Shown piece after piece: positions 1 to 60,667 of a stretch of 64,000 nt of DNA (the first letter of the stretch is position 1; every line of letters starts with the position of its first letter). The notes beneath the pieces are model-generated. The model made no database searches and had not been told where the DNA came from. It saw only the letters and a program-made list of their open reading frames with translations. Location of the stretch: NCBI RefSeq assembly GCF_014217835.1, contig NZ_CP055263.1, forward strand, positions 2,297,501-2,361,500, read 5' to 3'. The stretch comes from Metabacillus sp. KUDC1714. GTDB taxonomy: Bacteria > Bacillota > Bacilli > Bacillales > Bacillaceae. Both the position numbers and the translations under genes were made by a program.

Positions 1-1807
<1,807 letters not shown>

Positions 1808-1882
1808 AAGCGTTAAATGAAGTGAATTGAATTGTGAATCGTTATCTAGTTTTGAAGGAATATCCTTTCAATTTCATAAATT

Positions 1883-1999
<117 letters not shown>

Positions 2000-3235: not shown

Positions 3236-3263
3236 AATACATGTAAATAAGCGATAACGATAA

Positions 3264-3332
3264 CCTCATATAAAATTGGGAATATGGCCCAGAAGTTTCT
3301 ACCCGTTGACCGTAAATCATCGGACTATGAGG
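3264..3332 (+). promoter_or_regulatory. Guanine-type purine riboswitch aptamer
   Basis: P1 is formed by CCTCATA (3264-3270) and TATGAGG (3326-3332). Inside are the conserved purine aptamer strings AATATGG and AGTTTCTACC, and the J3/1 strand reads GGACTATG. The C in ACTATG is the residue that pairs with the ligand; adenine riboswitches have U there. It is therefore of the guanine/hypoxanthine class. It controls purE and the genes downstream by the attenuator that follows. Confidence 0.95.
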
Positions 3333-3376
3333 GAAAGTGTACGTATATACGATTCGGATGAAAAATGATTAATCCG

Positions 3377-44621: not shown

Positions 44622-44684
44622 CTTGATTGCGCATTATACTACGATTAAATAAGAAAATTAGTTTGCATGAAAAGGAAGAACAAA

Positions 44685-46070
44685 ATGCCAAAATTACAAG
44701 CACCCGTTATGAAAAATGAATATTACGAAGTAACCTTTGAAGACTTAACTCACGAAGGTGCAGGTGTTGCCAAAGTAGAGGGATTCCCTATTTTTGTAGA
44801 AAATGCACTCCCAGATGAACGTGGGAAAATTAAAGTGATTAAGGTGAAAAAGGGATTTGCTTTTGGTCGTTTAATTGAACTATATGAAACAAGCAAAAAT
44901 CGTATTGAAGCACCTTGCCCAATCTACTCTCAATGTGGAGGGTGTCAGCTTCAGCATTTTAGTTATGAAGGTCAACTTAACTTTAAGAAAAAGCAAGTAG
45001 AACAAGTGCTTGTACGAATTGGGAAGCTAGATCTTAACAACGTAAAGGTTCATCCAACACTCGGAATGAATGATCCATGGAATTATCGAAATAAGGCACA
45101 AGTCCCTATAGGAGAGCGGGAAGGTGGACTTGTAGCAGGCTTTTATCAAAAACGAAGCCACGATATTATTGACATGGAACGATGCCTAATTCAACAAGCT
45201 GAAAATGATAATGTAGTTCAGGCTGTAAAGAAAATATGTGAACAGTACGGGATTCGCGCTTATAACGAAGAAAAGCATAAAGGATGGTTACGTCACATAA
45301 TGGTGCGCTATGGCCTCGTTACAAAAGAAATGATGGTCGTATTCGTAACGAAAACCAATGACTTTCAGCATAAGCATGAAATCATTTCACAAATTACCGA
45401 ACTATTTCCTCAAGTAAAATCTATTGTACAAAATATAAACAACAAACGCACGAACGTTATTTTCGGCGATGAAACAAAGGTACTCTGGGGAGAAGAATAT
45501 ATCTATGACAAAATTGGTGATGTGAAGTTTGCCATTTCAGCTCGTTCCTTTTATCAAGTAAATCCTGAGCAAACAAAAGTGCTTTACGATAAGGCTTTAG
45601 AATATGCAGGGCTTACAGGTGAAGAATCAGTTATTGATGCATACTGTGGGATTGGAACCATATCACTATTCCTTGCCCAAAAAGCTAAAAAAGTATTTGG
45701 TGTTGAGGTTGTCCCAGAAGCAATAGAAGATGCAAAGCGAAATGCAGAGCTAAATGGAATTACAAATGCTGAGTTTGCAGTTGGAGAAGCTGAGGCTGTT
45801 ATTCCTGAGTGGAATAAGCAAGGGAATAAAGCAGATGTAATTGTAGTGGATCCGCCACGAAAAGGCTGTGATGAAACCTTACTTAAGACAATACTGGACA
45901 TGAAGCCTCATCGGGTAGTGTATGTTTCCTGTAATCCTGGGACACTTGCGAGGGATCTGAATGTACTTGAGCAAGGTGGGTATGAGACGATTGAGGTGCA
46001 GCCGGTGGATATGTTTCCGCATACGACACATGTGGAGTGCTGTTCACTACTTGTAAGAAAAGATAATTAA
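44685..46070 (+). CDS. rlmCD: 23S rRNA (uracil-C5)-methyltransferase RlmCD
   Basis: About 461 aa. An N-terminal TRAM domain (about 10-68) is followed by a [4Fe-4S] motif [15 protein letters not shown] near 80. The SAM-binding TrmA-type core has [13 protein letters not shown] near 321, DPPRKGC near 388 and the catalytic Cys in [12 protein letters not shown] near 416. In B. subtilis the homologue methylates both U747 and U1939 of 23S rRNA. The start at 44685 was chosen because AAAGGAAG lies 6 bases before it; ATG 44667 lacks such a site. Confidence 0.93.
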
Positions 46071-46087: not shown

Positions 46088-46115
46088 GAGAGCCTTCCCT
46101 GAGTTGGGAGGCTCT
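46088..46115 (+). terminator. Hairpin after rlmCD
   Basis: AGAGCCTTCC and GGGAGGCTCT pair around a 7-base loop, followed by TAATTAATT. The T run is poor, so termination may be partial. Confidence 0.6.
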
Positions 46116-46234
46116 TAATTAATTGTCATGAACTACGGAGACAAATAGCCTGACCTTTAGAGTAATCACCTGCTTGTTCCCTAATAAAAAAAGACTTTTC
46201 TAAGCCTGAGACTCAGTAAGTCTTAGCATATTTC

Positions 46235-46642: not shown

Positions 46643-46704
46643 GGTCTTTTTAATAAAGCTAAGCATAAACATTTAGGAGAGATAATAATAGAAGGGTGTT
46701 AAGG

Positions 46705-47061
46705 ATGCATGAGATGTCGCTTATGTCGGAAATTATTAACATAGTTTCAGAAGATGCTAGACTACATGGTTTTAACAAAGTGGATAAAATAGATGTGATT
46801 GTTGGTGATTTATCAAATGTACTGCCTGATGCTCTAGAGTTAGCATTTTTGCATTTTCGGAAACAAGGATTAGGCATTCTAGATGAAAATACGAAATTAC
46901 ATTTTATACGTGAAGTGGCGAAAGCAAAATGTCAAAGGTGTCTGTTAGAGTTTACCCCCGACTATAGAATAGCACTATGTCCCAAGTGTGGACTAGCAAA
47001 TTGTATACTCGTTTCCGGTGAAACCTTTAGGGTTGAATCATACGAAGGAAGTGATGAATAG
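46705..47061 (+). CDS. hypA: Hydrogenase nickel insertion protein HypA
   Basis: The 118-aa maturation factor delivers nickel to the large subunit together with HypB. The N-terminal Met-His-Glu (MHEMSLMSEI) binds nickel through His2. The zinc site is CQRC (76-79) plus CPKC (92-95). The ATG at 46705 restores this required N-terminus and has GAAGGGTG upstream; a GTG three codons earlier is less likely. It is the first gene of the locus, and the stop overlaps hypB. Confidence 0.93.
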   Translation: MHEMSLMSEIINIVSEDARLHGFNKVDKIDVIVGDLSNVLPDALELAFLHFRKQGLGILDENTKLHFIREVAKAKCQRCLLEFTPDYRIALCPKCGLANCILVSGETFRVESYEGSDE

Positions 47062-47720
47062 TGAAAATTAAGCTGCAAGAAGATGTGTTAAAAGATCAAA
47101 ACTTGGCTGCTGCATTCAATAGAGAAACCTTTAAAAAAACCCATACTCTTGTCATTAACTTAATGAGCTCTCCAGGAGCGGGTAAAACGACTTTACTTGA
47201 AGAAACAATGAAAGTGTTAAGGGATGAGTTTCATATGGCTGTGATTGAAGGTGATTTAGCAACGGATAGGGATGCAGAAAGATTACGTCTTCTAGGAATC
47301 AAAACGGTTCAAATCAATACGGTAGGAGGCTGTCACCTTGATGCAAGGATGATTGCAAAAACATTACCAGAATTTGACCTAGAATCGGTCGATATTCTTT
47401 TTATCGAGAATATTGGGAATTTAGTTTGCCCATCTGGTTACGATTTAGGACAAGATTATAAAGTGGTGGTTTTAAGTGTTCCTGAAGGAAATGATAAAAT
47501 CCCGAAATATCCTGTCATGTTTAGACGTACAGATGTAACCATCATTAATAAAATCGACCTCCTACCTTATGTATCTTTCAATTTAGAAGAAGCGATAAGA
47601 AATTTACAAGAAATTAATCCACAAGCGCAATTGAAAGCATTATCCGCCAAAACGGGTGAAGGGATGGAAGAATGGATCAATTGGATAAAGGATGCTTATC
47701 GTCAATGTACAAAGCGATAA
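47061..47720 (+). CDS. hypB: Hydrogenase nickel GTPase HypB
   Basis: A 219-aa SIMIBI-class GTPase. Walker A is SPGAGKTTLLEE near 37-48. The metal and dimer site is GGCHLDA with Cys91 and His92, switch II ENIGNLVCPS near 128, and the guanine motif NKIDLLPY near 160. The start has neither the His-rich stretch nor the CxxCGC motif of some HypB proteins, so it should not store nickel. The GTG start shares its first base with the hypA stop. It overlaps hypF by 16 bases. Confidence 0.94.
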   Translation: MKIKLQEDVLKDQNLAAAFNRETFKKTHTLVINLMSSPGAGKTTLLEETMKVLRDEFHMAVIEGDLATDRDAERLRLLGIKTVQINTVGGCHLDARMIAKTLPEFDLESVDILFIENIGNLVCPSGYDLGQDYKVVVLSVPEGNDKIPKYPVMFRRTDVTIINKIDLLPYVSFNLEEAIRNLQEINPQAQLKALSAKTGEGMEEWINWIKDAYRQCTKR

Positions 47721-49990
47721 AAGTAATCGTGAAAGGAAAGGTGCAGGGAGTTGGTTTTCGCCCATTTATCTACAATCTTTCAAAAAAATATCATCTCAAT
47801 GGATCAGTCCAAAATAATTTCGATAGGGTCGTCATCATTGCAGAAGGAGAAGAAAGGCTGGTAAAGAAAATGGTGGACGAAATCAAAAAGTCTCCGCCTA
47901 AATTGGCAAAAATTAATGAGATCAACATTCATCAAATTCCACTCGCTCATTATAAAGAATTTACGATTATTCCCAGCGTGAAAAACGGAAGGTCTATTCC
48001 CTGGATACCTGCGGATGCGGCGATTTGTGAAAAATGTTTGGAGGAAATGAACGACCCATATAATCGACGTTTTCACTATCCATTTATTAATTGCACTCAA
48101 TGCGGACCGCGCTATACGATTATCAGTCGTCTTCCATATGATCGTTCAAATACGACAATGAAGGAATTTCCTATGTGCCTTGATTGTGAAGTGGAGTATG
48201 AAGATCCATGGAATCGGCGGCACCATGCTCAGCCTATTTGTTGTTCAGATTGTGGACCAACACTTACGCTTTATAACCAAGGTGGGAAAACATTGGCTGA
48301 AAATCAATCAGCCATTACGCAAACGGTTGATCTAATCAAAAAAGGAAAGATTGTGGCCATTAAAGGAATAGGTGGCTTCCATTTAGCTTGTGATGCTTAT
48401 CAAGAGAAGGTAGTTGACCAATTAAGACTTAGAAAGAAACGACCACAGAAACCGTTGGCGATCATGGTTAAATCTATAGAGGTGGCAAGAAATCTTTGTT
48501 TTATTTCCAGCCAAGAAGAAAACCTCCTAACGAGCCCTGAAATGCCGATTGTTATTTTAAAAAGAAAAAGAGAGGGAGTAGTACCACCAAATATTTCTCC
48601 CGGTTTATCGACTATTGGGGTGATGCTGCCTTATACGCCTTTACATCATCTTTTATTTGAAAATCATAAATTAGAATGTATCGTGATGACGAGTGCTAAT
48701 CCTTCTGGTCTGCCCATGTTATATAGTGATGATCATTTAGAACACCTACAAAACATATGTGATAACATCTTAACTCATAACCGTAAAATTGATTTTCCCA
48801 TTGATGATTCCGTTGTTCAATGTGATGCAGAAAATGCGATATTTGTACGGCGTGCTAGAGGATTTGTTCCAGAGCCGCTTAAAACAACATCCAATGTAGA
48901 TCATATTATTGCATTAGGTGGAAACCAAAAGAATACATTTTCTGTTGGAAAACAGAATAACATTGTCATGAGTCCTCATGTAGGTAATTTAGAAAACGAA
49001 GAAATGATTGACTCTTTTGAAGAACAACTCCATCATTATAAAGAATTTCTAGGGGTTAAAGAAAAATATATGGCTATCGACAAGCACCCATTATACGCAT
49101 CCACTTCTATTGCAACAAAACTTAACCGTAAAATCATATCCATTCAACACCACCATGCACACCATGTATCTTGTATGGAAGATAACGGTCTTAACAAACC
49201 TTGTTTAGGGATTATATTAGATGGTACAGGATACGGAGAAGACGGAAATATTTGGGGATTTGAATTTCTATATGGAGATGCAAAATCTTTTGAACGACTG
49301 GCTCACTTGAAATCCACTCCTCTTCCAGGTGGAGAAAAAGCCGTGAAAGAACCGTGGAGAAATGCAGTTGGGATGCTGCTTTATTACTGGCCGCAAGAGG
49401 GAAAAGAATTATGTATGAAACTTTTTCCTGAGAGATTAAAAGAAATAAACATTATGGAACAAATGATAGTCCATCAGATGAATACGCCTATGGCTGGAAC
49501 ATGTGGCCGCTTATTTGATGCCATTAGTGCCATTCTCGGTATTTGTTCGATTTCAACGTATGAAGGAGAGGCAGCGATCAAATTATCTGATTATATGAAT
49601 AGAACCGAACTTGAAAGTACAGGGGAGATGTATTCATATCATTTAATAACACACACTCCAAACCAAATTCAACTTGACTTATCTCCTATGATTTATCAAA
49701 TCATTCAAGACAAATTTCAACAACAATCCATTACTACAATCATACAGAAATTTCATAACACATTGGTGTCTTGCTGTGTACAAATGGTTTTAAAAGTTGT
49801 GAAAAACAGACCTGATCTAAATAGAACGGTCGTACTGTCAGGAGGATCCTTCCAAAATGTTTTTCTTGCCAGAGAGATTCAAAAAGGTCTTGAGAAAGAA
49901 GGATTTAACGTCTATACACATAAACATGTCCCATGCCACGATGGAGGCTTATCATTAGGACAAATCATCATTGCTGCTCATCAGTTGTAA
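47705..49990 (+). CDS. hypF: Carbamoyltransferase HypF
   Basis: About 761 aa, making the carbamoyl group that becomes the CN ligands. An acylphosphatase domain (about 1-90) holds KVQGVGFRPFIYNL. Two zinc motifs follow (CEKC...CTQCGPR and CLDC...CSDCGP, about 108-185). A YrdC-like domain (about 200-380) has GIGGFHLACDA, KKRPQKPLAIM and MTSANPSG. The Kae1-like C-terminal domain has HHHAHHVSCMED near 480 and VVLSGGSFQNVFL near 705. The ATG at 47705 gives the standard MYKAIKV start; an upstream ATG at 47672 is open too. Confidence 0.94.
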   Translation: MYKAIKVIVKGKVQGVGFRPFIYNLSKKYHLNGSVQNNFDRVVIIAEGEERLVKKMVDEIKKSPPKLAKINEINIHQIPLAHYKEFTIIPSVKNGRSIPWIPADAAICEKCLEEMNDPYNRRFHYPFINCTQCGPRYTIISRLPYDRSNTTMKEFPMCLDCEVEYEDPWNRRHHAQPICCSDCGPTLTLYNQGGKTLAENQSAITQTVDLIKKGKIVAIKGIGGFHLACDAYQEKVVDQLRLRKKRPQKPLAIMVKSIEVARNLCFISSQEENLLTSPEMPIVILKRKREGVVPPNISPGLSTIGVMLPYTPLHHLLFENHKLECIVMTSANPSGLPMLYSDDHLEHLQNICDNILTHNRKIDFPIDDSVVQCDAENAIFVRRARGFVPEPLKTTSNVDHIIALGGNQKNTFSVGKQNNIVMSPHVGNLENEEMIDSFEEQLHHYKEFLGVKEKYMAIDKHPLYASTSIATKLNRKIISIQHHHAHHVSCMEDNGLNKPCLGIILDGTGYGEDGNIWGFEFLYGDAKSFERLAHLKSTPLPGGEKAVKEPWRNAVGMLLYYWPQEGKELCMKLFPERLKEINIMEQMIVHQMNTPMAGTCGRLFDAISAILGICSISTYEGEAAIKLSDYMNRTELESTGEMYSYHLITHTPNQIQLDLSPMIYQIIQDKFQQQSITTIIQKFHNTLVSCCVQMVLKVVKNRPDLNRTVVLSGGSFQNVFLAREIQKGLEKEGFNVYTHKHVPCHDGGLSLGQIIIAAHQL

Positions 49991-50023
49991 GATGACAAAA
50001 GAAAATGAAGGTGGTGAATTCAA

Positions 50024-50275
50024 TTGTGCTTAGGAGTACCCGCTAAAGTCATTGAAATAGAAGAGCAAAGAGCTCTAGTAGATGTGATGGGTTCGAGGAT
50101 GTATGTAGGGATCTTTTTTGTTCCAGAGGTTAGGATAGATGATTATGTTTTACTCCATGCTGGGCAGGCCATGACCATAGTGGATGAGGAATTTGCCAAG
50201 GAAAGTATAGAAGAATGGAGGAATGTGTTAGATGGTAAACATGGAACTTTTTTCGGAACCGACCTTAACTCGTGA
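50024..50275 (+). CDS. hypC: Hydrogenase assembly chaperone HypC
   Basis: The 83-aa chaperone carries the Fe(CN)2CO unit with HypD and docks to the large subunit precursor. It has the obligatory Met-Cys N-terminus MCLGVPAKVIEIE and the VDVMGS and YVLLHAGQAMTIVDEE strings. The TTG start at 50024 is supported by AAGGTGGTG 7 bases before it and by the need for Cys2. It overlaps hypD by 44 bases. Confidence 0.93.
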   Translation: MCLGVPAKVIEIEEQRALVDVMGSRMYVGIFFVPEVRIDDYVLLHAGQAMTIVDEEFAKESIEEWRNVLDGKHGTFFGTDLNS

Positions 50276-51338
50276 GTCAGTAGAGGCTGTTATCGATTTA
50301 GCGAAGAAATTTAAAAAAGAAAAAGGTAGAATCCCGGTATTTATGGAGGTATGTGGTTCACATACGATGGCCTTAGCCAAAACAGGAATAAAAACTAGAT
50401 TGAAAGATTATGTACACCTTATTGCTGGGCCGGGATGTCCTGTATGTGTCACAGATCAAAAGTCGATCGATGCGATGATTCAATTATCAGAAGAGTCTAA
50501 CACGATTCTTTGTACATTTGGCGATATGATGCGTGTTCCTGGTTCTAAATTTACCCTAATGAAAGCGAAAACAGATGGAAAGGATATCAGAGTCGTTTAC
50601 TCTCCGTTAGATAGTGTGAAAATAGCAGAAGAAAATCCAGATAAGGAAGTCATTTTTTTAGGAATTGGATTTGAAACAACGATTCCAATTCTCGCTCTTG
50701 CTGTTAGAGAGGCAACAAGAAAGGAGTTAAAGAATTATTCGATATGGATGACAACAAAATTGGTGGAACCTGTTTTAAGAGTCCTTCTTAGTTCAGGAGA
50801 TGTAAAACTTGATGGATTTCTTTTACCTGGTCAGGTTTCCATTGTTATAGGAAAACAGAGCTACCGTTATTTAGCGGAAGAATTTGATATTTCGGGGGTC
50901 ATTACTGGTTTTGAACCCGTTCAATTGCTCAGTGGGATTTATAAGCTGCTACATCTTCTGCTGGAAAAAAGGGTTAAGATCCTTAATGATTATACATATG
51001 TTGTAAGTGATGAAGGAAACGTAGTTGCTCAAAACTTAATAGAAGAATATTTAGAAACTCATGACGAGGCATGGAGGGGGATAGGTACCATCCCAAAAAG
51101 TGGATTAGTGCTTAAAGAACAATACGCGCTATACGATGCGAAAAAGAAGTTTAAAATTTCGATAGGGGAACCGAGAGTAACAAAATGCCGCTGTGGTGAA
51201 ATCGTTCGAGGATTAATTACACCAGAAGAGTGTGTGCTGTTTAATAAAGGTTGTACTCCCACCCACCCTATTGGTCCTTGTATGGTATCAACAGAAGGAA
51301 CCTGTGCGGCACATTATCATTTCATGAGGGAGGTGTAA
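50232..51338 (+). CDS. hypD: Hydrogenase iron-cofactor scaffold HypD
   Basis: The 368-aa [4Fe-4S] protein on which the Fe(CN)2CO group is built. The key Cys is in MEVCGSHTMAL near residue 41, GPGCPVCVTDQ lies near 69, and FLGIGFETTIP near 138. A C-terminal Cys set holds the cluster: CRCGEIV, CVLFNKGCTPTHPIGPCMVSTEGTC. The ATG at 50232 has GGAGG 10 bases upstream; ATG 50241 is an alternative. Confidence 0.93.
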   Translation: MVNMELFSEPTLTRESVEAVIDLAKKFKKEKGRIPVFMEVCGSHTMALAKTGIKTRLKDYVHLIAGPGCPVCVTDQKSIDAMIQLSEESNTILCTFGDMMRVPGSKFTLMKAKTDGKDIRVVYSPLDSVKIAEENPDKEVIFLGIGFETTIPILALAVREATRKELKNYSIWMTTKLVEPVLRVLLSSGDVKLDGFLLPGQVSIVIGKQSYRYLAEEFDISGVITGFEPVQLLSGIYKLLHLLLEKRVKILNDYTYVVSDEGNVVAQNLIEEYLETHDEAWRGIGTIPKSGLVLKEQYALYDAKKKFKISIGEPRVTKCRCGEIVRGLITPEECVLFNKGCTPTHPIGPCMVSTEGTCAAHYHFMREV

Positions 51339-51343
51339 CCTTG

Positions 51344-52351
51344 GTGCAGCGAATTAGTCTTGCTCATGGAGAAGGTGGAGAATTAACACACCAACTCATT
51401 CAAGACATCTTTATTCAATCATTTGGACATTCAGAGCAAACACAGTTTGATTCTGCCATTCTTGCCATTCCTTCACAAACAATCGCTGTAACAACAGATA
51501 GTTACGTGGTAAAACCTATTTTCTTTCCAGGTGGAAATATAGGGAAACTGGCGATCACAGGAACAGTGAACGATTTAGCTGTAAGTGGTGCTATTCCTCA
51601 CGTGATAACTTCCGGATTTATTATCGAAGAAGGGTTTCCAATAAAAAGTCTAAAAGAGATTGTCAACACGATGGCATGGGAAGCAGAAAGAGCCGGGGTA
51701 AACATCATCGCCGGTGATACAAAAGTAGTCGAAAAGGGGAGTGTGGATGGCCTATTTATTAATACGACAGGGATCGGTGTAATGCAAAAACAACATCGAT
51801 TGAAACCTGAAGCGATTCGAGAAGGAGATTCCGTAATCATTAGTGGAACAATCGGGGATCATGGGGTCGCAATTTTGAGTGCACGTAACGAGCTTGGGTT
51901 GCTAACAGATGTTAAGAGTGATTGTGCATCATTAAACCACCTGATACATGAACTCTTGGAGGAAATCAAAGGGATTCGGATCATGCGGGATCCGACAAGG
52001 GGTGGCTTAGCCACAGCACTAGTAGAACTATGTGAAGACTTTCGTATTACAGTTGAAGTAGATGAAGCTTCAGTTCCAGTACGTAAGGATGTTCAAGGTG
52101 CCTGTGATATTTTGGGTTATGATCCTCTTTATCTAGCAAATGAAGGGAAAGTAGTGATCATCGTGGATTCAAATGATAAACAAAAGGCGCTTGATATCTT
52201 GAAGAATCATGAGATGGGAAAGGATGCAAGTGTGATTGGTCAAATTACTTCCTGTCATATTCAATCAGGGAAATTACTTTTAAAAACAGCTGTTGGCACA
52301 ACAAGAAGACTTAATCGCCTGTCTGGCCAGCTTTTGCCTAGAATTTGTTAA
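51344..52351 (+). CDS. hypE: Carbamoyl dehydratase HypE
   Basis: The 335-aa PurM-like enzyme converts the carbamoyl group on its C-terminal Cys to a thiocyanate. It starts ISLAHGEGGELTHQLI, has TVNDLAVSGAIPHVIT and GDTKVVEKG, and ends with PRIC, the invariant C-terminal Cys. The GTG at 51344 (or TTG at 51341) follows GAGGGAGGTG at 51327-51336. A longer frame from 51251 lies within hypD and is not needed. It is the last of the six hyp genes. Confidence 0.93.
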   Translation: MQRISLAHGEGGELTHQLIQDIFIQSFGHSEQTQFDSAILAIPSQTIAVTTDSYVVKPIFFPGGNIGKLAITGTVNDLAVSGAIPHVITSGFIIEEGFPIKSLKEIVNTMAWEAERAGVNIIAGDTKVVEKGSVDGLFINTTGIGVMQKQHRLKPEAIREGDSVIISGTIGDHGVAILSARNELGLLTDVKSDCASLNHLIHELLEEIKGIRIMRDPTRGGLATALVELCEDFRITVEVDEASVPVRKDVQGACDILGYDPLYLANEGKVVIIVDSNDKQKALDILKNHEMGKDASVIGQITSCHIQSGKLLLKTAVGTTRRLNRLSGQLLPRIC

Positions 52352-52407
52352 ATCATTTTGATATGTAAGCATAGGATAGGAGGAAACCGCCTAAAGGGGA
52401 GAACATC

Positions 52408-52935
52408 ATGAATAACATCGAAATGATTAGAATGCAAATAAATTATCTTGTTACACAAGCCCGTCATGATATCTATACGTTATCTACATTGAGTGACACT
52501 TCCATGAAGCCGCAAATTCTTCAACGGTTATGGGATGCACTATCTACTATCCATTTTCTGAGTGATTGGCTGGCAAATCAAGCTAAGACTAGTTCTCATA
52601 ATTTATCTTCTCAACCATCTATTCCAGGTCTTTCAGGGGCATTATATCAGTCACAAATTCCTCCCATTACTCCTTTACCCACTCCACCTATATCACAGTC
52701 TAATCAACGTACGTTTACTATTGGAGAATTGGCCACATTTACTGGGAAAAATGGGAGGCCTGCTTATGTTGCGGTCAATGGCATTGTCTATGATGTGACT
52801 AACAACCGGGCCTGGGCTGCTGCTACCCACTTTGGCTTAATTGCAGGCAAAGATTATACGCAGGAATTTGCTTCTTGTCATGCTGGGCAACAATCAATCT
52901 TAGCTGCACTACCCGTTGTAGGGAGGTTGGTTTAA
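52408..52935 (+). CDS. Cytochrome b5-like domain protein of the hydrogenase locus
   Basis: A 175-aa soluble protein. Residues 1-58 form a helical N-terminal part (IEMIRMQINYLVTQARHDI) and 59-100 a Ser/Pro-rich linker. Residues 101-175 form a cytochrome b5-like haem or steroid binding domain: FTIGELATFTGKNGRPAYVAV, NGIVYDVTN, THFG and CHAGQQSILAALPVVG. His141 and His158 are placed to be the two haem ligands. No signal peptide or membrane helix is seen. Its stop overlaps the start of the small subunit gene (TAATG), and it follows hypE by 56 bases, so it is part of the enzyme operon. I infer an electron carrier or regulator; direct evidence is lacking. Confidence 0.8.
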   Translation: MNNIEMIRMQINYLVTQARHDIYTLSTLSDTSMKPQILQRLWDALSTIHFLSDWLANQAKTSSHNLSSQPSIPGLSGALYQSQIPPITPLPTPPISQSNQRTFTIGELATFTGKNGRPAYVAVNGIVYDVTNNRAWAAATHFGLIAGKDYTQEFASCHAGQQSILAALPVVGRLV

Positions 52936-53840
52936 TGGAAGGACAAATTTTGCCGCCAGAATCTTTAACAAATGAAGCCATTGCGGAAAGGTTAACAAGT
53001 ACGGCACTAAAGAGCCTTAAAAAGGGGACTATTAAGAAAAAAAACCTGATTTATTTAGAATTAAATGGTTGTTCCGGTAATATCATTTCCTTGTTAAACG
53101 GGCAGAATCCCGACTTTGAGTACACGTTAAATTCGATGGTTGATCTTAAGTTTTGCAATAGTTTAATGGCTGCTGAAGGAGAGCGGGCCATCGAGAAACT
53201 AATAAAGGCGATGGACGAAGAGTATATTTTAGCAGTTGAAGGAGCTGTGGCGTTAAAAAATAATGGTTTATACAATATTATCGGCAACTGGCAAGGAAAG
53301 CCTCTTACAGGCCTTCAAGCAGCACAGATGCTCGGAGAAAAGGCTTCACATATTTTTGCAGTGGGGGCTTGTGCCACACATGGAGGGGTATCAGCAGCAA
53401 AACCCAATCCATCCCAATCTGTTGGGCTGCAACAGGTCCTGCCAAACAAAAAGATGATTAAACTTCCCGGATGTCCTGTTCATCCAGACTGGTTTTTAGG
53501 GACATTAGCGCATCTTTTATTATATGGGGAGCCGGAAACAGATAACCTAGACCGGCCTTTAATGTTCTATAGCACGCTTATCCATGATCGTTGTCCAAGA
53601 AGGCCGTTTTTTGACCGTGGGATTTTTGCTGAAAAGTTAGGAGAAAAAACATGTCTATTCAAGCTTGGATGTCGAGGACCCGTGACGAGAGTAGATTGTC
53701 CAACAAGGCAATGGAATGGTCATGTGAATTGGCCGATAGGAGATAATACGCCATGCATTGGCTGTGCTCAGTTTGGTTTTCCAGATGCCATGGCGCCGTT
53801 CATTAGCTATGACACGACAAGGGTGGTGAAGAATGAGTAA
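52935..53840 (+). CDS. [NiFe]-hydrogenase small subunit, cytosolic
   Basis: The 301-aa electron-transfer subunit. Proximal cluster ligands are Cys46 (LNGCSGN), Cys146 (GACATHGG) and Cys180 (LPGCPVHPDW); the usual first Cys is Leu43. Distal cluster: His217 and Cys220 (IHDRCPRRPF), Cys240 and Cys246. Medial: Cys255, Cys274 and Cys277 (PCIGC). There is no RRxFxK Tat signal and no C-terminal membrane helix, so it should stay in the cytoplasm. CSGN and the following SLLNGQNP resemble cyanobacterial HupS and group 2a enzymes. GGGAGG precedes the ATG. Confidence 0.9.
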   Translation: MEGQILPPESLTNEAIAERLTSTALKSLKKGTIKKKNLIYLELNGCSGNIISLLNGQNPDFEYTLNSMVDLKFCNSLMAAEGERAIEKLIKAMDEEYILAVEGAVALKNNGLYNIIGNWQGKPLTGLQAAQMLGEKASHIFAVGACATHGGVSAAKPNPSQSVGLQQVLPNKKMIKLPGCPVHPDWFLGTLAHLLLYGEPETDNLDRPLMFYSTLIHDRCPRRPFFDRGIFAEKLGEKTCLFKLGCRGPVTRVDCPTRQWNGHVNWPIGDNTPCIGCAQFGFPDAMAPFISYDTTRVVKNE

Positions 53841-55239
53841 GAGAATCGTGATTAATCCGTTGACACGAATTAGCGGTTTTATGGAAATTGATGTGATGAT
53901 CGATCAGAATCAAGTCGTTGATGTCAAAACAAAAGGAAATTTATTTCGCGGCTTTGAGCAAATGTTAGTAGGCAGAAGTCCGTTCGATGCCGTTTATTTT
54001 ACTCAGCGAATATGCGGCATTTGCTCTGCAGCCCACTCCATGGCTTCATCCCGTGCTTTAGAAGATGCTTTAAACATTGAACCAATGGAACAAGGAAAAT
54101 ATTTACGAGATATCATCCATTGTTGTGAGTTTTTACAAAATCATATCCGCCATTTTTATCAATATACTGTTCCTGACTTTGTAAAGATTGAACAAAACTC
54201 TCTTTTCCAGTCCGACCATGACGACTTTCGATTACCCAAAAACATTAATGACCGGATCACACAGCATTATTTTGATTCCCTCAAGTTCAGTCGTTTAGCT
54301 CACGAGATGTTAGCTGTTTTAGGCGGGAAAGCTCCCCATAATCATGGGGTTTTTATTGGAGGGATAACCACACAGGCAACAGCAGAGAAAGTCGTTCATA
54401 TCGATTCTATTTTGGATAAAATATCCAAATTTATTGATGAAAAAATGATCCCGGATGTATATGACATTGCGCGCTTCTATGCAGACTATTTTCGCATGGG
54501 CGGAGGGTATGGCAACCTTTTAACCTACGGGGCTTTTAACCATTATAAGGAGTTAGGCACACTATATGTGGATTCGCTTGTATCCACAATGGAATCTGTT
54601 GAAGCATTTGATGAAAGTAAAATTCAAGAAAAAATAGATTACTCCTATTTCAACTCAATAAATAACAGCAATCAACCAAATGAGGCAGTGACAGAGCCGG
54701 ATATGGACAAAGAAAAAGCCTATTCCTGGGTGAAGGCACCAAGATATAAGGGTCTCCCTTTTGAGGTCGGGCCGTTGGCCAGGTTGATATTAAGTGGATC
54801 GTATAGCAACGGAATCTCCGCTATGGACCGAACGATTGCCAGAGCACTAGAAGCAAAGAAAATCTCAGAAATTATGAAAATATTACTTCAGCAAATCATT
54901 CCAGGAGTAGATGTGCAAAAAAAATATGAACTTCCAGAATTGGCATCTGGAAGGGGGTTAGTAGATACAACGAGAGGAGCACTAGGCCATTGGTTAAAGA
55001 TTCAAGATAAGAAAATCTCCTTCTATCAAATCATCACTCCTTCCACATGGGATTTTTCAACGAGGGATGATAATGGTTTTAGAGGTACGGCTGAAGAAGC
55101 CTTGGTCGGTACACATATTCAGAATCCAGATAAACCTGCAGAAATTGGCAGAATTCTTCGTTCCTTTGATCCGTGTATGTCATGTGCGACTCATGTATAT
55201 AGTCCAGGAAAACAAGTAAAAACGATAAAGGTGTTTTAA
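53833..55239 (+). CDS. [NiFe]-hydrogenase large subunit
   Basis: The 468-aa catalytic subunit. The N-terminal nickel motif is QRICGICSAAH with Cys61 and Cys64. The C-terminal motif is DPCMSCATH with Cys448, Cys451 and His454. Fourteen residues follow His454 and would be removed by the protease encoded next. Other family strings: NPLTRISGFMEI, NLFRGFEQMLVGR and GGKAPHNHGVFIGG. It is shorter than classical group 1 enzymes (about 550-600). The start overlaps the small subunit gene by 8 bases, so subunits are made together. Confidence 0.94.
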   Translation: MSKRIVINPLTRISGFMEIDVMIDQNQVVDVKTKGNLFRGFEQMLVGRSPFDAVYFTQRICGICSAAHSMASSRALEDALNIEPMEQGKYLRDIIHCCEFLQNHIRHFYQYTVPDFVKIEQNSLFQSDHDDFRLPKNINDRITQHYFDSLKFSRLAHEMLAVLGGKAPHNHGVFIGGITTQATAEKVVHIDSILDKISKFIDEKMIPDVYDIARFYADYFRMGGGYGNLLTYGAFNHYKELGTLYVDSLVSTMESVEAFDESKIQEKIDYSYFNSINNSNQPNEAVTEPDMDKEKAYSWVKAPRYKGLPFEVGPLARLILSGSYSNGISAMDRTIARALEAKKISEIMKILLQQIIPGVDVQKKYELPELASGRGLVDTTRGALGHWLKIQDKKISFYQIITPSTWDFSTRDDNGFRGTAEEALVGTHIQNPDKPAEIGRILRSFDPCMSCATHVYSPGKQVKTIKVF

Positions 55240-55694
55240 TGGAAAACATAATCGTTTTAGGTATTGGCAATATATTAATGATGGATGATGGAATTGGAAT
55301 TGATCTAATTGAGCAACTATCCAAGCTGAATCGTACACCTCATGTATCTTTTTTGATTGGAGAATCAGATATTGATTACTGCATGGATCAAATAATGAAC
55401 GCTACATTTGTAATCATTGTGGATGCTGTATTTTCAGGAAACGAACCAGGGGAGCTTACCGTTTATCCACTTGCCAATTTACATGAATATCAAACTTTAG
55501 ACATCTCAGCGCATAACTTTCACTTGTTTCAATCATTGTATCAACAGAAAGAATCAATAAAGGGGTATCTCATAGGAGTGGAACCTTATGAGATCAGGTT
55601 CCATATTGGATTAAGCAAAACTTTAAGAGAAAAATGGAAAACGATTTTACAAGATGTATCACAGACTATTGATAGCTTGATTGCTAAGAATTGA
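55239..55694 (+). CDS. Hydrogenase maturation protease (HyaD/HupD family)
   Basis: The 151-aa peptidase cuts the C-terminal extension of the large subunit after nickel insertion. It starts IIVLGIGNILMMDDGIGID with Asp16 as the first metal ligand. It has VDAVFSGNEPGEL with Asp62 and ISAHNFHLF with His92, the three nickel-sensing ligands of the family. Its first base is the last base of the large subunit stop. It ends the hydrogenase operon; no clear terminator follows. Confidence 0.92.
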   Translation: MENIIVLGIGNILMMDDGIGIDLIEQLSKLNRTPHVSFLIGESDIDYCMDQIMNATFVIIVDAVFSGNEPGELTVYPLANLHEYQTLDISAHNFHLFQSLYQQKESIKGYLIGVEPYEIRFHIGLSKTLREKWKTILQDVSQTIDSLIAKN

Positions 55695-55798
55695 GTGTGT
55701 TATATAGATCTTCAGATTATAAGTTAAAATAAATAGAAGAACATTCCCTAAGCATAGGCATATGATGTTTTTGTATATCTGTGAAGGGAATGAAAAAA

Positions 55799-56686
55799 AT
55801 GTACAATGTCCCTAGTATGTATCCATATCAAAATCAATATCATTATTATGTTAATGCACCAATGCATAACTATGAAAGACAGTCTGTTTACAGGAATATT
55901 CCTAATGGTACTAACCAATATGGTTTTAAAGATTATGGACCAGAACCATTTGTAGTTAATATCAATGAGGCTACGAAGCGAAACAAAACCTATCGTACCG
56001 CTTTATGGACAGGGAATCGTTTGCAAGTTACTTTAATGAGTCTCAATGTTGGCGAAGATATCGGTTTGGAAATGCATCCTGACGTTGATCAGTTCTTACG
56101 TATTGAACAAGGACAGGGAATTGTTCACATGGGCAAGAGTAAAGATAATTTTGACTTTGAAAGAAATGTCTATGATGATTTTGCAATAATGATACCTGCT
56201 GGAACATGGCATAATCTAACCAATACAGGAAATATTCCGTTAAAACTTTACTCGATATATGCTCCTCCTAACCATCCATTTGGTACTATTCATGTTACCA
56301 AATCAGATGCAGTAGCTACGGAAGAAGCTTATGGTCATCGTAATGACAAAAATACAATTATAAAAAATTCAAATATGTTTAGACCCAAAAATATTGATAC
56401 AACAAATTCAAACACCTCTAAAACTAGCTTTTCTAAAGAGGAAGCATCAGCAATAGCTTTACTTTTAGGTATTGATTTTACCAAAAGTAAATTTGATTTA
56501 AATGAGTTTTGGATGGGAGTAAATACCGAACTTGAACATGGAAGAAAATACAATCAGACTAATGTTACTGCGGATGAACCTATCACTACTGGGAAAATTG
56601 CACTAGCTCATCTCAACGAATTTCCTGATTATTATAAAAGGTTAAAAGTGCTTGAGGAAGAAGCAAAAGCGTATTGGAACAAATAA
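55799..56686 (+). CDS. Cupin protein with C-terminal DUF5661 domain
   Basis: About 295 aa. The N-terminal 45 residues are rich in Tyr, Asn and Gln (PYQNQYHYYVNAP), like many spore coat proteins. A cupin barrel lies at about 60-165 (EMHPDVDQFLRIEQGQGIVHMG and MIPAGTWHNLTNTG) with metal-type His and Glu. DUF5661 follows at about 205-290 (LLLGIDFTKSKFDLNEF, GKIALAHLNEFPDYYKRL). Function is unknown. The start MYNVPSMYPY was chosen, with GAAGGG about 10 bases before; ATG 55790 is possible. A spore-surface role is only inference. Confidence 0.75.
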   Translation: MYNVPSMYPYQNQYHYYVNAPMHNYERQSVYRNIPNGTNQYGFKDYGPEPFVVNINEATKRNKTYRTALWTGNRLQVTLMSLNVGEDIGLEMHPDVDQFLRIEQGQGIVHMGKSKDNFDFERNVYDDFAIMIPAGTWHNLTNTGNIPLKLYSIYAPPNHPFGTIHVTKSDAVATEEAYGHRNDKNTIIKNSNMFRPKNIDTTNSNTSKTSFSKEEASAIALLLGIDFTKSKFDLNEFWMGVNTELEHGRKYNQTNVTADEPITTGKIALAHLNEFPDYYKRLKVLEEEAKAYWNK

Positions 56687-56699
56687 TATACCAGATAAA

Positions 56700-56733
56700 A
56701 AAGGTCAAGCAGAAATCTGGTTGACCTTTAGTT
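56700..56733 (+). terminator. Terminator after the cupin gene
   Basis: AAAGGTCAA and TTGACCTTT form a 9-bp stem with a 12-base loop, followed by AGTTTA. Confidence 0.75.
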
Positions 56734-56807
56734 TAAGAAAGATTGCAATTTATTATTTCCACCTTAATTGATTAAAAAAACAAAAACCAATAAGAAGGAA
56801 AATGGAC

Positions 56808-57422
56808 TGACCCATCTAAATGAGACTTAGAAAAAACACTTAAGCTGCCTGTTCTCCAAACTCAATTGAGACAGGTAGTATAATTTTGCCTGAATACGTA
56901 TTTGGTTATAATAATACATGTATTGATTTACTATTTGCACTACTTTAGAATTAGATATAGATGCTCTTCTTTGAGTATTGAATCCTTCCGACTTTAGCGA
57001 GGAGTGAAAGGATTCTATGACGGCATTATCATGGCAGTTTCCTTTTCGGGACATGCTTGTGATGATGCCTTTTTCTTTAGCTAAATTTTGAAAAGCATAA
57101 GATGTATAAACAGAACCTTGATCAGTATGAATCAGTATCCCTTCTTTTGGTTTTCTTTTCTCTACAGCTTCACTAAGTGTATCTTTAACCAGATCTACAT
57201 CCTGACTCTCACTCACTTTGTAGGTTACAATCTCGTTATTATAAAGGTCTGTTTCATTATCGCTTTATTACTCATTCCTTGTAACTTTAATTCTACAGCT
57301 TGCCACTTTACTTCCTCGGGGTAGTGAACTCTTGTGCCCATAAAGAAAAACACCTCCAAAATCGTTTAGATAACTAATACGACTCAAGGGGTGTTTTTTC
57401 CTTGTCTCATTTTACTGGGTCA
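56808..57422 (-). mobile_element. Internally deleted IS3-family element with both ends
   Basis: The left end TGACCCATCTAAATGAGAC... and the right end (minus strand) TGACCCAGTAAAATGAGAC... match over about 34 bases, including a shared GAAAAAACAC. The enclosed 615 bp is less than half the size of a complete IS150-like element. No clear target duplication is seen next to the ends (GAC and CTC). It lies between the cupin and collagen-like genes. Confidence 0.8.
56827..57341 (-). pseudogene. IS3-family transposase remnant (OrfA start joined to OrfB end)
   Basis: From 57341 the frame reads MGTRVHYPEEVKWQAVELK, the N-terminus of an IS3-family OrfA. It stops after 38 codons. Without a gap another frame continues as DLYNNEIVTYKVSESQDVD and then the last part of the OrfB integrase core: HTDQGSVYTS, SRKGNCHDNAVIESFHSSLK with the final catalytic Glu, and YYYNQIRIQ. 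The middle (rest of OrfA and the first half of OrfB with two catalytic Asp residues) is deleted, so it cannot be active. Confidence 0.8.
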
Positions 57423-57574: not shown

Positions 57575-58825
57575 TTGGAATTTTGTACGAATTGTGGTTT
57601 TAACGATGAGTTATGTAGATGTTCATCAAACTATAACCAGCCTTTTAATTATCAGTCTAGAGCCCTAAAAAGATCGTGTAAAGAGTATAATTGTTCCTGT
57701 TCTAGTTGTTGTCCAAAACCAGGAACTCCAGGACCACAAGGACCTCCGGGACCTCCAGGACAGACAGGTGCGACAGGACCACAAGGACCTCCGGGATCAA
57801 CAGGTGCGACAGGACCTCAAGGCTTAACGGGTCCTCAGGGACCAGTAGGACCACCGGGGCCAGCAGGAGGACCAGTAGGACCAGCAGGACCAGCAGGACC
57901 AACAGGCCCAACAGGGTCACCAGGAATTCCAGGACCAACAGGGCCACAGGGGCCAACAGGGGCACAAGGAACTCCAGGAACAACAGGAGCTACGGGAGCT
58001 ACGGGTCCACAAGGACCTATAGGCCAAATAGGACCACAAGGACTAGCAGGTCCAACAGGCCCAACAGGCCCAACAGGACCACAAGGACCACAAGGAATTC
58101 CAGGACCTGCAGGGGGATCAGGGGGACCACCGGGTCCACAAGGACCAATAGGACCACAAGGACCAACAGGAGCAACAGGACCACAAGGAGTTCCAGGACC
58201 AACAGGTCCGCAAGGAGAACCAGGAGAACCAGGAGCAACAGGAGCAACAGGAGCAACAGGACCGCAAGGAGTTCCAGGGCCAACAGGGCCACAAGGAATC
58301 CAAGGGCCTGCAGGACCTGCAGGAGCAACTGGACCACAAGGAATAGCAGGACCAACAGGACCACAAGGACCAGCAGGAATACAAGGACCAGCAGGAGGAG
58401 TATTAGACTTTGCAGATTTTTATGCATTGATGCCCCCTGATAATGCCGCAACAGTTGGAGCAGGTGGAGACGTAGATTTTCCGAGGAATGGACCTACTAT
58501 TGCTGGTAGTGGTATTTTCCGCCAAACTGCCGATTCATTTTTCTTGTCTGCCATTGGAACTTATCAGGTCTTGTTTCAGGTGAGTGTCAGCGAAGCAGGC
58601 CAACTGGTTTTAACTCTCAATGGGAATGACCTAGCCCATACAGTGGTCGGGCGAGCAACGGGTACTTCTCAGATAGTAGGAATGGCTCTTGTGGAAACGA
58701 CAAGCATCAATTCAATACTCACTGTACGAAATCCTGCTGGCAATTCCCCGGCACTAACCATCACGCCTCTCTCTGGAGGAACAAGACCTGTTTCAGCACA
58801 CCTTGTTATCACGCGACTCCGATAG
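57575..58825 (+). CDS. Collagen-like spore-surface protein (BclA-type)
   Basis: A 416-aa protein. Residues 1-49 are Cys-rich (CTNCG, CRC, SCSSCC) instead of the usual exosporium leader LIGPTLPPIPP. Residues 50-273 are about 75 Gly-X-Y triplets such as [13 protein letters not shown]. Residues about 275-416 form a beta-rich BclA/C1q-like C-terminal domain ([21 protein letters not shown] near 327, HLVITRLR at the end) that should trimerise. TTG start with AGGAGGGA 5-8 bases before. Such proteins form the nap of the spore surface; localisation here is inference. Confidence 0.88.
57722..58395 (+). repeat. Collagen-like Gly-X-Y coding repeat tract
   Basis: Tandem 9-base units of the type GGACCAACA / GGACCACAA encode Gly-Pro-Thr and Gly-Pro-Gln. 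The tract is GC-rich relative to its neighbours and repetitive enough to vary in length by recombination. The long open frames on the other strand and in other phases are a by-product. Confidence 0.9.
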
Positions 58826-59632: not shown

Positions 59633-60667
59633 ATGAAAAAAGAGAATGTAACAATATATGACATTGCTAAAGAAGCTAATGTATCTCCAGCAACGGTTTC
59701 GAGAGTCTTAACCGGAAATGCAAAAGTTCGCCCACAGACAACGCGGAAAATAGTTGATGTGATTGAAAAATATAATTTTAGACCAAATAGTTTAGCAAGA
59801 AGCTTATTCCATAAGCAATCGAAAACAATTGGCTTTATTTTACCAGACATAAATCATCCGTTTTTCTCGACATTGGTTCAAAGTAGTGAGGCTCATGCAT
59901 TGGAATTAGGGTATACAACATTTTTGTGTAATACGAGGAACAACTCAGAAAATGAATCTAAATACTTGCAAAGCCTAGTAGAAAAACAGGTGGATGGGAT
60001 TATCTATCTTGGTGGGAGAATTAATGATACTGACACTGATCAGGAATATGCAGAAGAAATGAAGACAGTGATGGAAAGAATTCCAGTTGTTTTTGTTAAT
60101 GGCCAAATGAACGGGGTAGATGCCCATATTGTTAGAACTGATGAAGAGTCAGGGATTGAAAAGCTTGTTGAATTGTTATTAAATTTAAATCATAAAAAGA
60201 TTGGTTTTCTTGGTGGAAAAGAAGGAATAAGTTCAACTGATGTAAAAAGGAATACATTTGTTAAAATGATGGAAAACAAAGGGATAAGTGTTAACGAAGA
60301 TTGGGTTTTGGGTACTGGGTTTAGTATTGAATCTGGTGAAGAAGTTGCTGGACAATTGCTCAATCTAAAAGATAGGCCTACAGCGGTTATCTGTGCCAAT
60401 GATTTTGTTGCGATCGGGGTAATAAAGGTTCTTACCAAATTTGGGTTAACGGTTCCAGATGATGTTTCCGTTGTCGGGTTTGATGATATTTACTTGGCGC
60501 AGCATTTTCCTCCAGGAATTACGACTGTAAGCCAGAATTATGATCATTTGGGTCAAACTGCTATCAATGTACTTGTAAATTTAATTAATGAGAAAGAAGC
60601 AGAGAGAGAAACGGTTATTCCAACATCACTAGTATTAAGGGATTCTTGTAGAATATTTTCAGAATAA
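59633..60667 (+). CDS. LacI family transcriptional regulator
   Basis: The 344-aa repressor has an N-terminal helix-turn-helix VTIYDIAKEANVSPATVSRVLTG (residues 6-28) and hinge FRPNSLARSL. A periplasmic-binding-protein-like sugar domain follows (GFILPDINHPFFSTLVQ near 67; VPDDVSVVGFDDIYLAQHF near 275). GGGGGAAAG precedes the ATG. It lies upstream of, and in the same direction as, the beta-galactosidase, so it probably controls it through the operator in between. The effector is likely a galactoside; this is inferred from context. Confidence 0.92.
   Translation: MKKENVTIYDIAKEANVSPATVSRVLTGNAKVRPQTTRKIVDVIEKYNFRPNSLARSLFHKQSKTIGFILPDINHPFFSTLVQSSEAHALELGYTTFLCNTRNNSENESKYLQSLVEKQVDGIIYLGGRINDTDTDQEYAEEMKTVMERIPVVFVNGQMNGVDAHIVRTDEESGIEKLVELLLNLNHKKIGFLGGKEGISSTDVKRNTFVKMMENKGISVNEDWVLGTGFSIESGEEVAGQLLNLKDRPTAVICANDFVAIGVIKVLTKFGLTVPDDVSVVGFDDIYLAQHFPPGITTVSQNYDHLGQTAINVLVNLINEKEAERETVIPTSLVLRDSCRIFSE

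Follow-up and report, generated by a model that had tools for sequence, protein, structure and literature searches.

A mobile [NiFe]-hydrogenase cassette of an under-described Bacillota lineage in Metabacillus sp. KUDC1714

What kind of [NiFe] hydrogenase is encoded in the chromosome of Metabacillus sp. KUDC1714, and is it still in use? The locus in question is a ten-gene cassette at 46705-55694 of a 64,000-nucleotide (nt) stretch of contig NZ_CP055263.1 (assembly GCF_014217835.1, forward-strand positions 2,297,501 to 2,361,500), which we call the window; coordinates refer to it unless another locus is named. Our answer is that the locus is a real hydrogenase cassette, kept by selection and mobile, whose lineage has so far been little described. 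It is complete and, to judge by its genes, apparently working. We give a probability of about 0.6 to the reading that a horizontally moving cassette here encodes a cytosolic H2-uptake enzyme, whose electrons would go to the b5-type heme protein encoded beside it.

What does the cassette encode?

The cassette holds, in order and all on the plus strand, hypABFCDE, a gene for a b5-type heme protein (hereafter b5), the small and large subunit genes, and a protease gene. The maturation set consists of hypA (46705..47061), for a Ni metallochaperone (PF01155, E 1.4e-23); hypB (47061..47720), for a Ni-inserting GTPase (TIGR00073, 275.7 bits against a cut-off of 121.2); hypF, for a carbamoyltransferase, with its start refined to 47705 (47705..49990; TIGR00143, 812.9 bits, cut-off 466.1); hypC, for a chaperone (50024..50275; TIGR00074, 72.9 bits, cut-off 48); hypD, whose exact start is uncertain (50232..51338; TIGR00075, 415.4 bits, cut-off 192.8); and hypE (51335..52351; TIGR02124, 435.2 bits, cut-off 251.6), whose GTG start at 51335, read from the sequence, lies on the hypD stop.

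These are followed by b5 (52408..52935; Cyt-b5 domain PF00173, E 2.8e-7), the small subunit (52935..53840; PF01058 and PF14720), whose ATG at 52935 overlaps the b5 stop, the large subunit (53833..55239; PF00374, E 6.7e-111), and a HycI/HyaD-type maturation protease (55239..55694; PF01750; TIGR00072, 106.1 bits, cut-off 47.45). The proteins are 175 (b5), 301 (small subunit), and 468 residues long (large subunit). Seven of the nine gene junctions overlap, by 1-44 bases; the gaps lie between hypF and hypC (33 bases) and between hypE and b5 (56 bases). Pfam confirms all ten genes, and NCBIfam concurs except for b5, for which it has no match. The complete ten-gene locus on one strand that had been described earlier from the letters of this DNA (the sequence-only reading) thus stands, with every open reading frame (ORF) present and matching its family.

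The large subunit reaches 487.7 bits with its best NCBIfam model, NF033181, and is not a standard member, because this score is under the cut-off of 600. It is the single PF00374 gene found in the 5.76 Mb, one-contig host genome. A search of the host for a NicO nickel transporter gave one partial match (28.6 bits, cut-off 27.7).

Are the genes maintained? The ratio of nonsynonymous to synonymous substitution rates (dN/dS) is 0.03-0.43 for all gene pairs that could be computed against up to eight related loci (L010, L011, L012, L015, L016, L018, L024, and L026); comparisons in which dS was saturated or a stop occurred were skipped, and from L024 only hypC was computable. For the large subunit the ratio is 0.03-0.12 in seven of the compared loci. 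The cassette genes are under purifying selection, and the locus is not a product of chance, because dN/dS is low for every computable pair. Together with the open frames, these ratios rule out a decaying island in this host.

Where does the enzyme belong?

From 119 large subunits gathered, 78 entered a quick tree after near copies of kept types had been removed by hand; references were of groups 1a, 1b, 1c, 1d, 1h, 2a, 2b, and 3d. For a careful tree of 54 rows, 1h and 3d were dropped as the two longest branches, and two more plasmid references were added. An Alteromonas plasmid large subunit considered as a further reference could be read only as a fragment and was excluded from it.

In the quick tree the window enzyme falls in a clade of 47 Bacillota rows (97 by the Shimodaira-Hasegawa-like approximate likelihood ratio test, SH-aLRT), apart from all references used and nearer to the group 1 references than to the group 3 reference. 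The careful tree gives supports of 91/85 for the Bacillota clade (32 rows), 98/95 for the part of it without the glutamate Glu25, 97/86 for the part without a twin-arginine translocation (Tat) signal, and 100/99 for L119, L115, and the Bacilli together; the b5-bearing relatives L115, L119, L123, and L124 join the clade. The HoxC and Huc references (2a/2b) form a separate clade (100/98). The 1a [NiFeSe] enzyme 5jsu, a single reference, stands outside the Bacillota clade in both trees (97 for the 47 rows; 91/85 for the 32).

By these trees, the enzyme is a member of a Bacillota-only lineage outside the 1a [NiFeSe], 1b, 1c, 1d, 2a, and 2b references used. Such a tree had been proposed in the sequence-only reading as a check, and with these references it gives no placement in 1a, 1b, 1c, 1d, 2a, or 2b; it may yet belong to 1e, 1f, 1g, 1i, 1j, 1k, or 1l, of which the trees held no known reference. 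An ordinary 1d or 2a enzyme is ruled out by the trees together with the missing partners.

What is unusual about the active site?

The Ni motifs of the large subunit are intact: RICGIC, and DPCMSCATH, which is followed by 14 further residues that form the C-terminal extension. In the small subunit all proximal, medial, and distal ligand positions are present, the medial site being of the three-Cys-plus-Pro kind. One proximal Cys is replaced: the window motif is CSGN, with Asn for the second Cys, and the same Asn occurs in 28 of 29 Bacilli rows, the 28 being the readable ones.

The feature of first interest to a specialist is the missing Glu25 (numbering of D. fructosovorans), the proton-gate glutamate, the equivalent of which in the window is Ser14. 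Across the 47 clade rows this column holds Ser (34), Asn (7), His (2), Gln (1), or Glu (3); the 31 rows outside the clade have Glu (30) or Val (1, HofG). Together, the 34 Ser rows make up the Tat-less branch. Grouping the rows by this column shows only one other column that loses a conserved titratable residue, at window position 49 (Asp in 30 of the 33 Glu rows). The titratable residues gained by the Ser14 rows are His96, Arg106, Tyr111, His171, Tyr245, and Asp332, each of them at most a candidate for the substitute.

The window enzyme also has Ile63 at the Val74 position, Tyr111 at the Leu122 position, and Asn103 at the Asp123 position. Bulky residues at the Val74 and Leu122 positions slow gas entry. 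Ile at the former is found in 44 of the 47 clade rows and is not special, because 9 of the 31 outside rows share it; at the latter, Tyr occurs in 31 of the 34 Tat-less rows and Leu in 30 of the 31 outside rows. The loss of Glu25 and the Asn cluster ligand, on which the sequence-only reading did not remark, are the locus's more unusual features.

What is reported for comparable changes? Glu25Gln abolished activity in D. fructosovorans and left about 50% in T. roseopersicina, in which Arg487Ile and Asp103Leu each cost all activity, according to the account of these variants in PMC3325256. The Arg of Arg487Ile is kept in the window; the Asp of Asp103Leu corresponds to Asn103, and the [NiFeSe] reference has Ser there. 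In the A. macleodii enzyme, H2 evolution was measurable with the proximal-ligand substitutions that occur naturally, as described in PMC4070099.

How is the enzyme placed in the cell, and what is its partner?

The window small subunit has neither an RR pair nor a hydrophobic stretch before its first cluster motif, and the Tat signal expected of a periplasmic HydDB 1a enzyme is not seen in it. Among the ten cassette genes, the ORF list and Pfam reveal no cytochrome b561, no subunit reducing nicotinamide adenine dinucleotide (NAD), and no kinase. The earlier statement that the cassette lacks a Tat signal, a HyaC-type cytochrome b, an NAD-reducing subunit, and a kinase is borne out.

Relatives at the base of the clade are built otherwise. 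An RR pair precedes the first cluster motif in 12 of 13 basal rows, nine of them with the strict RRxF[LI], and a PF01292 cytochrome b561 follows the large subunit in all seven Tat-type relatives tested (seven of the 13 given). RRxF[LI] is absent throughout the 34-row Tat-less branch, in which the L099 ORF is without its N-terminus; the RR pairs of L125, at residues 22 and 34, are possibly a worn Tat motif. Of the 29 distinct Bacilli loci whose large subunit is intact, all but L020 have the b5 gene immediately upstream of the small subunit (28 of 29), and L115 and L119 share this arrangement, as does the broken copy L100, which is not counted among the 29. In L123 and L124 the b5 gene comes after the large subunit (L123 4024-4272, L124 4558-4797), where Tat-type loci have b561, and the proximal motif is CSGD. 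On this gene order, the simplest reading is that b5 would have replaced b561 when export was lost.

Two neighbors may be recorded here. A glyoxalase-like/Arr (rifampin ADP-ribosyltransferase) fusion ORF precedes the small subunit of the bin L020 in place of b5 (L020 8067-8864), and a gene for a SelO-type protein adenylyltransferase lies just upstream of b5 in L115 (6607-8118).

The b5 protein itself has an N-terminal helical hairpin (residues 2-62), a Pro-rich linker, and a Cyt-b5 domain (about 100-175), for which the nearest solved structure is 6nzx, a cytochrome b5 (E 7.2e-11). His141, Cys157, and His158 do not vary among 16 sequences, those of the window and of 15 of the 17 loci found in named genomes (L020 has no b5, and L023 was left out), and the two His are candidate axial heme ligands. 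A count of transmembrane stretches gave none for the b5 of L115, L119, L123, or L124, and none was seen by eye in that of the window. Within the host genus, PF00173 occurs only in the two of 21 genomes that have the hydrogenase. In an AlphaFold2 model, the predicted local distance difference test (pLDDT) score of the hairpin is about 78-93 (ten-residue means), and that of the b5 part is mostly under 50.

How widely is the cassette found, and does it move?

In the host genus the large subunit is present in two of 21 genomes and absent in 19. A family sample gave matches in five of 80 genomes, namely the two of the host genus, two intact copies in another genus, and one fragment; G066, which has an intact copy, also bears a second, broken piece. 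A PF00374 match of some kind occurs in 79 of 398 genomes of a class sample and 185 of 398 of a phylum sample. From the former we took 16 stretches with a large subunit of ~470-483 residues and three with a longer one, plus one further genus stretch, and from the latter 16 with a large subunit of ~470 residues and four with a longer one. These stretches were chosen by eye from lists, and no frequency of the lineage in the phylum can be derived from them.

A scan of named genomes gave 17 loci with 79-96% identity, titled Neobacillus, Niallia, Bacillus (three), Rummeliibacillus, Metabacillus (two), Rossellomorea, Peribacillus, Lysinibacillus, Halobacillus, Cytobacillus, Paenibacillus, Bacillales bins (two), and Chryseobacterium. 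Thirteen of the 17 have the identical ten-gene order, the search for which had been suggested together with the tree. The locus titled Chryseobacterium sp. ISL-80 (L019) is a Bacillus cassette that nests beside that of Cytobacillus, and the assembly is probably mislabelled or contaminated.

Some of these thirteen are damaged or deviate. In L015 the hypB alignment runs through a stop, as does that of hypC in L026, and the hypE of L024 is split in two. The other four loci are hyp-deficient: L014 is without hypF and has a split hypB, L013 is without hypFCDE, L025 has no hyp gene at all, and L020 has neither hyp genes nor b5. Does this mean that the enzyme is dying in these hosts? A hypD is present in all 16 named-locus genomes searched (that of L019 was left out), with two in the genomes of L013 and L014. 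The genomes of L013, L014, L020, and L025 all have a HypF finger pair elsewhere, and in all four a second hypABFCDE set sits beside a HyaB/HoxG-like large subunit (L195, L196, L197, and L199); the L013 genome has its second hypD at L198, which is of a distant type and is accompanied by a hypB. Because all four deficient genomes have such a second set, hyp genes have been lost from the cassette only in hosts with another set to stand in for them. Local hyp loss as a sign of death is ruled out for these four loci, and its confinement to genomes with a second set therefore favors continued use of the enzyme.

The genome with the most similar rlmCD, the gene upstream of the cassette, is G001 (93% nt identity); it has no hydrogenase, and identity ends at window 46043 and resumes only at 60561. 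The large subunit is 96% identical to the Neobacillus and Niallia copies and 84% identical to that of Metabacillus idriensis, and the flanks of the cassette vary between genera. Decayed pieces in L188 (5266-6794; M. idriensis, G066) and L189 (6482-6790; G069) match window 53765-53876 and 54014-54164. They sit ~5 kb from an rlmCD-like gene, and those of L188 join a stretch matching window 55453-56739 (protease end plus cupin gene) at 95.5% nt identity, the rlmCD there being at 73.7%. M. idriensis also has an intact cassette at another place (L026).

The cassette is thus, on sequence comparison, one that has moved horizontally between spore-forming relatives of Bacillus. The claim that it is an acquired unit holds up, given its patchy presence (two of 21), its absence from the genome closest in rlmCD, and the 96% and 84% identities.

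What known systems does it resemble?

The nearest case in print is taken to be a Tat-less, b5-flanked enzyme of acetogenic Clostridium. As described in PMC9431212, each acetogen studied has a single enzyme of HydDB class 1a, none with a Tat signal, and three (C. carboxidivorans, C. drakei, and C. scatologenes) have an adjacent b5 gene; the authors leave the location of these enzymes open. The absence of a twin-arginine signal and a b5 gene adjoining the subunits are common to that enzyme and to ours. The hosts there differ in being acetogens with few heme-pathway candidates, and the passages of PMC9431212 consulted mention neither a ten-gene cassette nor a Glu25 change; the two were compared by description. 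The sequence-only reading had held that the layout fits no usual group 1 or group 3 arrangement. The layout is indeed unusual, but it is not without precedent, since these clostridial enzymes are Tat-less with an adjacent b5 (PMC9431212). Literature searches in an open-licence library found no paper on a Bacillus cassette of this kind.

Among solved structures the best sequence match is 5jsu, the 1a [NiFeSe] enzyme of Desulfovibrio, which, unlike the window enzyme, has Glu25 and lies outside the clade in both trees. We take it also to have a CxxC proximal site and to be exported. HydDB describes 1a as periplasmic and as including [NiFeSe] variants (PMC5037454). Group 2a (Huc, cyanobacterial HupSL) shares the Asn at the second proximal Cys, in HupS of N. 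punctiforme (PMC4070099) and as CNGN in the Huc-like L048, and the Huc-like small subunits seen have, like ours, no Tat pattern. Unlike the window enzyme, group 2a keeps Glu25 and has its large subunit elsewhere in the tree, and the Huc-like stretches (most ~4.5 kb) show no match to the window b5. Enzymes of group 2a take up atmospheric H2 (PMC7784904).

With the O2-tolerant enzymes of group 1d (HyaAB, HoxKG) there is a two-subunit, uptake-type core in common, but those have a Tat signal, a cytochrome b subunit, Glu25, and an extra proximal Cys (six-Cys site), all of which are missing here. HofG of group 1h is also without Glu at the Glu25 column (Val, in a distant row whose alignment is less sure); its large subunit is very distant, and its accessory genes are others.

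How would it work, and what else could it be?

By homology, the hyp products and the protease would build and close the Ni-Fe site of a soluble cytoplasmic enzyme, at which H2 would be split. Electrons would pass the three Fe-S clusters of the small subunit, the Asn seen at a proximal ligand position presumably acting as a ligand, and would go on to the heme of the adjacent b5 and then to the respiratory chain or another acceptor. Protons would exit by a route without the usual glutamate, as the Ser replacement suggests. The tree and the loci point to an ancestry among Tat-exported enzymes with a membrane b561, from which export and b561 would have been lost, with b5 as the new partner. A broader proposal is tentative, and we hold it somewhat short of probable: that this Bacillota lineage combines H2 catalysis without the gate glutamate, a move from membrane to cytosol through the b5 swap, O2-hardening by an Asn-ligated proximal cluster and a narrowed gas channel, and a portable uptake cassette shared among aerobic spore-formers.

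Several points weigh against an uptake enzyme that feeds b5. With Ser in place of Glu25 the enzyme might turn over little H2 or none, given that Glu25Gln was inactive in D. fructosovorans in the account of PMC3325256, and Asp123, which is part of a proposed alternative proton route, is by alignment Asn here. The b5 domain is poorly modelled in the prediction, the cassette encodes no acceptor for b5, and L020 and L125 have the subunits with no b5 found nearby. The unit also decays: in G214 (L100 3528-12397) the genes from hypB onward are present, b5 among them, but stop codons interrupt the large subunit.

Could the enzyme mainly evolve H2, venting excess reductant in the cytosol when O2 is limiting, with b5 as the donor? 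A cytosolic location does not demand an uptake role, other classes of the phylum also contain related branches, and the name of one of the hosts, Bacillus sp. DNRA2, suggests low-O2 life, as far as a name can. We nevertheless think it unlikely, because b5 heme potentials are usually far above the H+/H2 couple, so that evolution from b5 would be uphill, and the large subunit is closer to the group 1 than to the group 3 references. Quite improbable, in our view, is an H2 sensor in which the hydrogenase would reduce b5 and b5 or its helical hairpin would signal to a regulator. The Ile and the aromatic residue at two gas-channel positions do resemble regulatory HoxC (Ile, Phe), and the cassette is without a membrane partner, but it has no kinase or regulator among its genes, no other [NiFe] large subunit was found in the host for it to regulate ([FeFe] enzymes were not searched for), and HoxC lies elsewhere in the careful tree.

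The loss of the proton gate might also mark a protein without H2 turnover that uses the same cofactors in another redox role. The Ser that replaces Glu25 in all 34 Tat-less rows would fit, as would the Asn found at Asp123 in the rows shown; the maturation set, protease, and C-terminal extension are retained, however, purifying selection acts on the genes, and HofG of group 1h has Val at the Glu25 column and is an active enzyme, all of which makes this very unlikely. We give least weight to a plain HydDB 1a enzyme, an ordinary periplasmic uptake hydrogenase. The best solved relative is [NiFeSe], variants that HydDB places in 1a (PMC5037454), and HydDB also assigned the Tat-less clostridial enzymes to 1a (PMC9431212); yet 1a is described as periplasmic (PMC5037454), there is no export signal here, and the [NiFeSe] reference lies outside the clade, with a careful-tree support of only 91/85.

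If the cytosolic uptake enzyme is active, nature has supplied a test case against the view that proton transfer in [NiFe] hydrogenases needs Glu25. The enzyme would also offer a soluble three-protein system, with its own compact maturation set, for tests of O2 tolerance and of electron transfer to b-type heme, and would add H2 use to the Bacillaceae where it was unexpected, showing how the trait has spread.

What surrounds the cassette?

The flanks are as the sequence-only reading gave them, with rlmCD (44667-46070) upstream and an insertion sequence (IS) remnant downstream. A terminator-like hairpin follows rlmCD on the plus strand (46088-46116), according to a terminator scan that found 14 such sites in the stretch against 7.2 expected; the block that holds it is 90% identical in L185 and L188 and 84% in L189.

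A GCATAAA box on the plus strand (46663-46669), ~40 nt before hypA, is a possible promoter -10. CATAA/G starts 37-42 nt upstream of the hypA ATG in 13 of 17 upstream regions, two of which (L026 and L190) are near-identical. Such a CATA -10 is, we assume, reminiscent of sporulation sigma factors. A palindrome upstream of hypA that, on inspection of some rows, seemed a promising operator was not shared once scored, and only the CATA box remained.

Directly downstream of the cassette lies a gene with Cupin_2 and DUF5661 domains (55781-56686), which may be part of the moving segment or a landing site; it also adjoins the cassette in L015, L016, and L020. The IS remnant, past this gene, is a short integrase-core ORF (56827-57216, PF00665). 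Farther along is a collagen-like gene (57575-58825). The first part of the window (1-1999 and 3246-3347) holds the 23S rRNA gene end, a 5S rRNA, and a purine riboswitch, which places an rRNA operon there.

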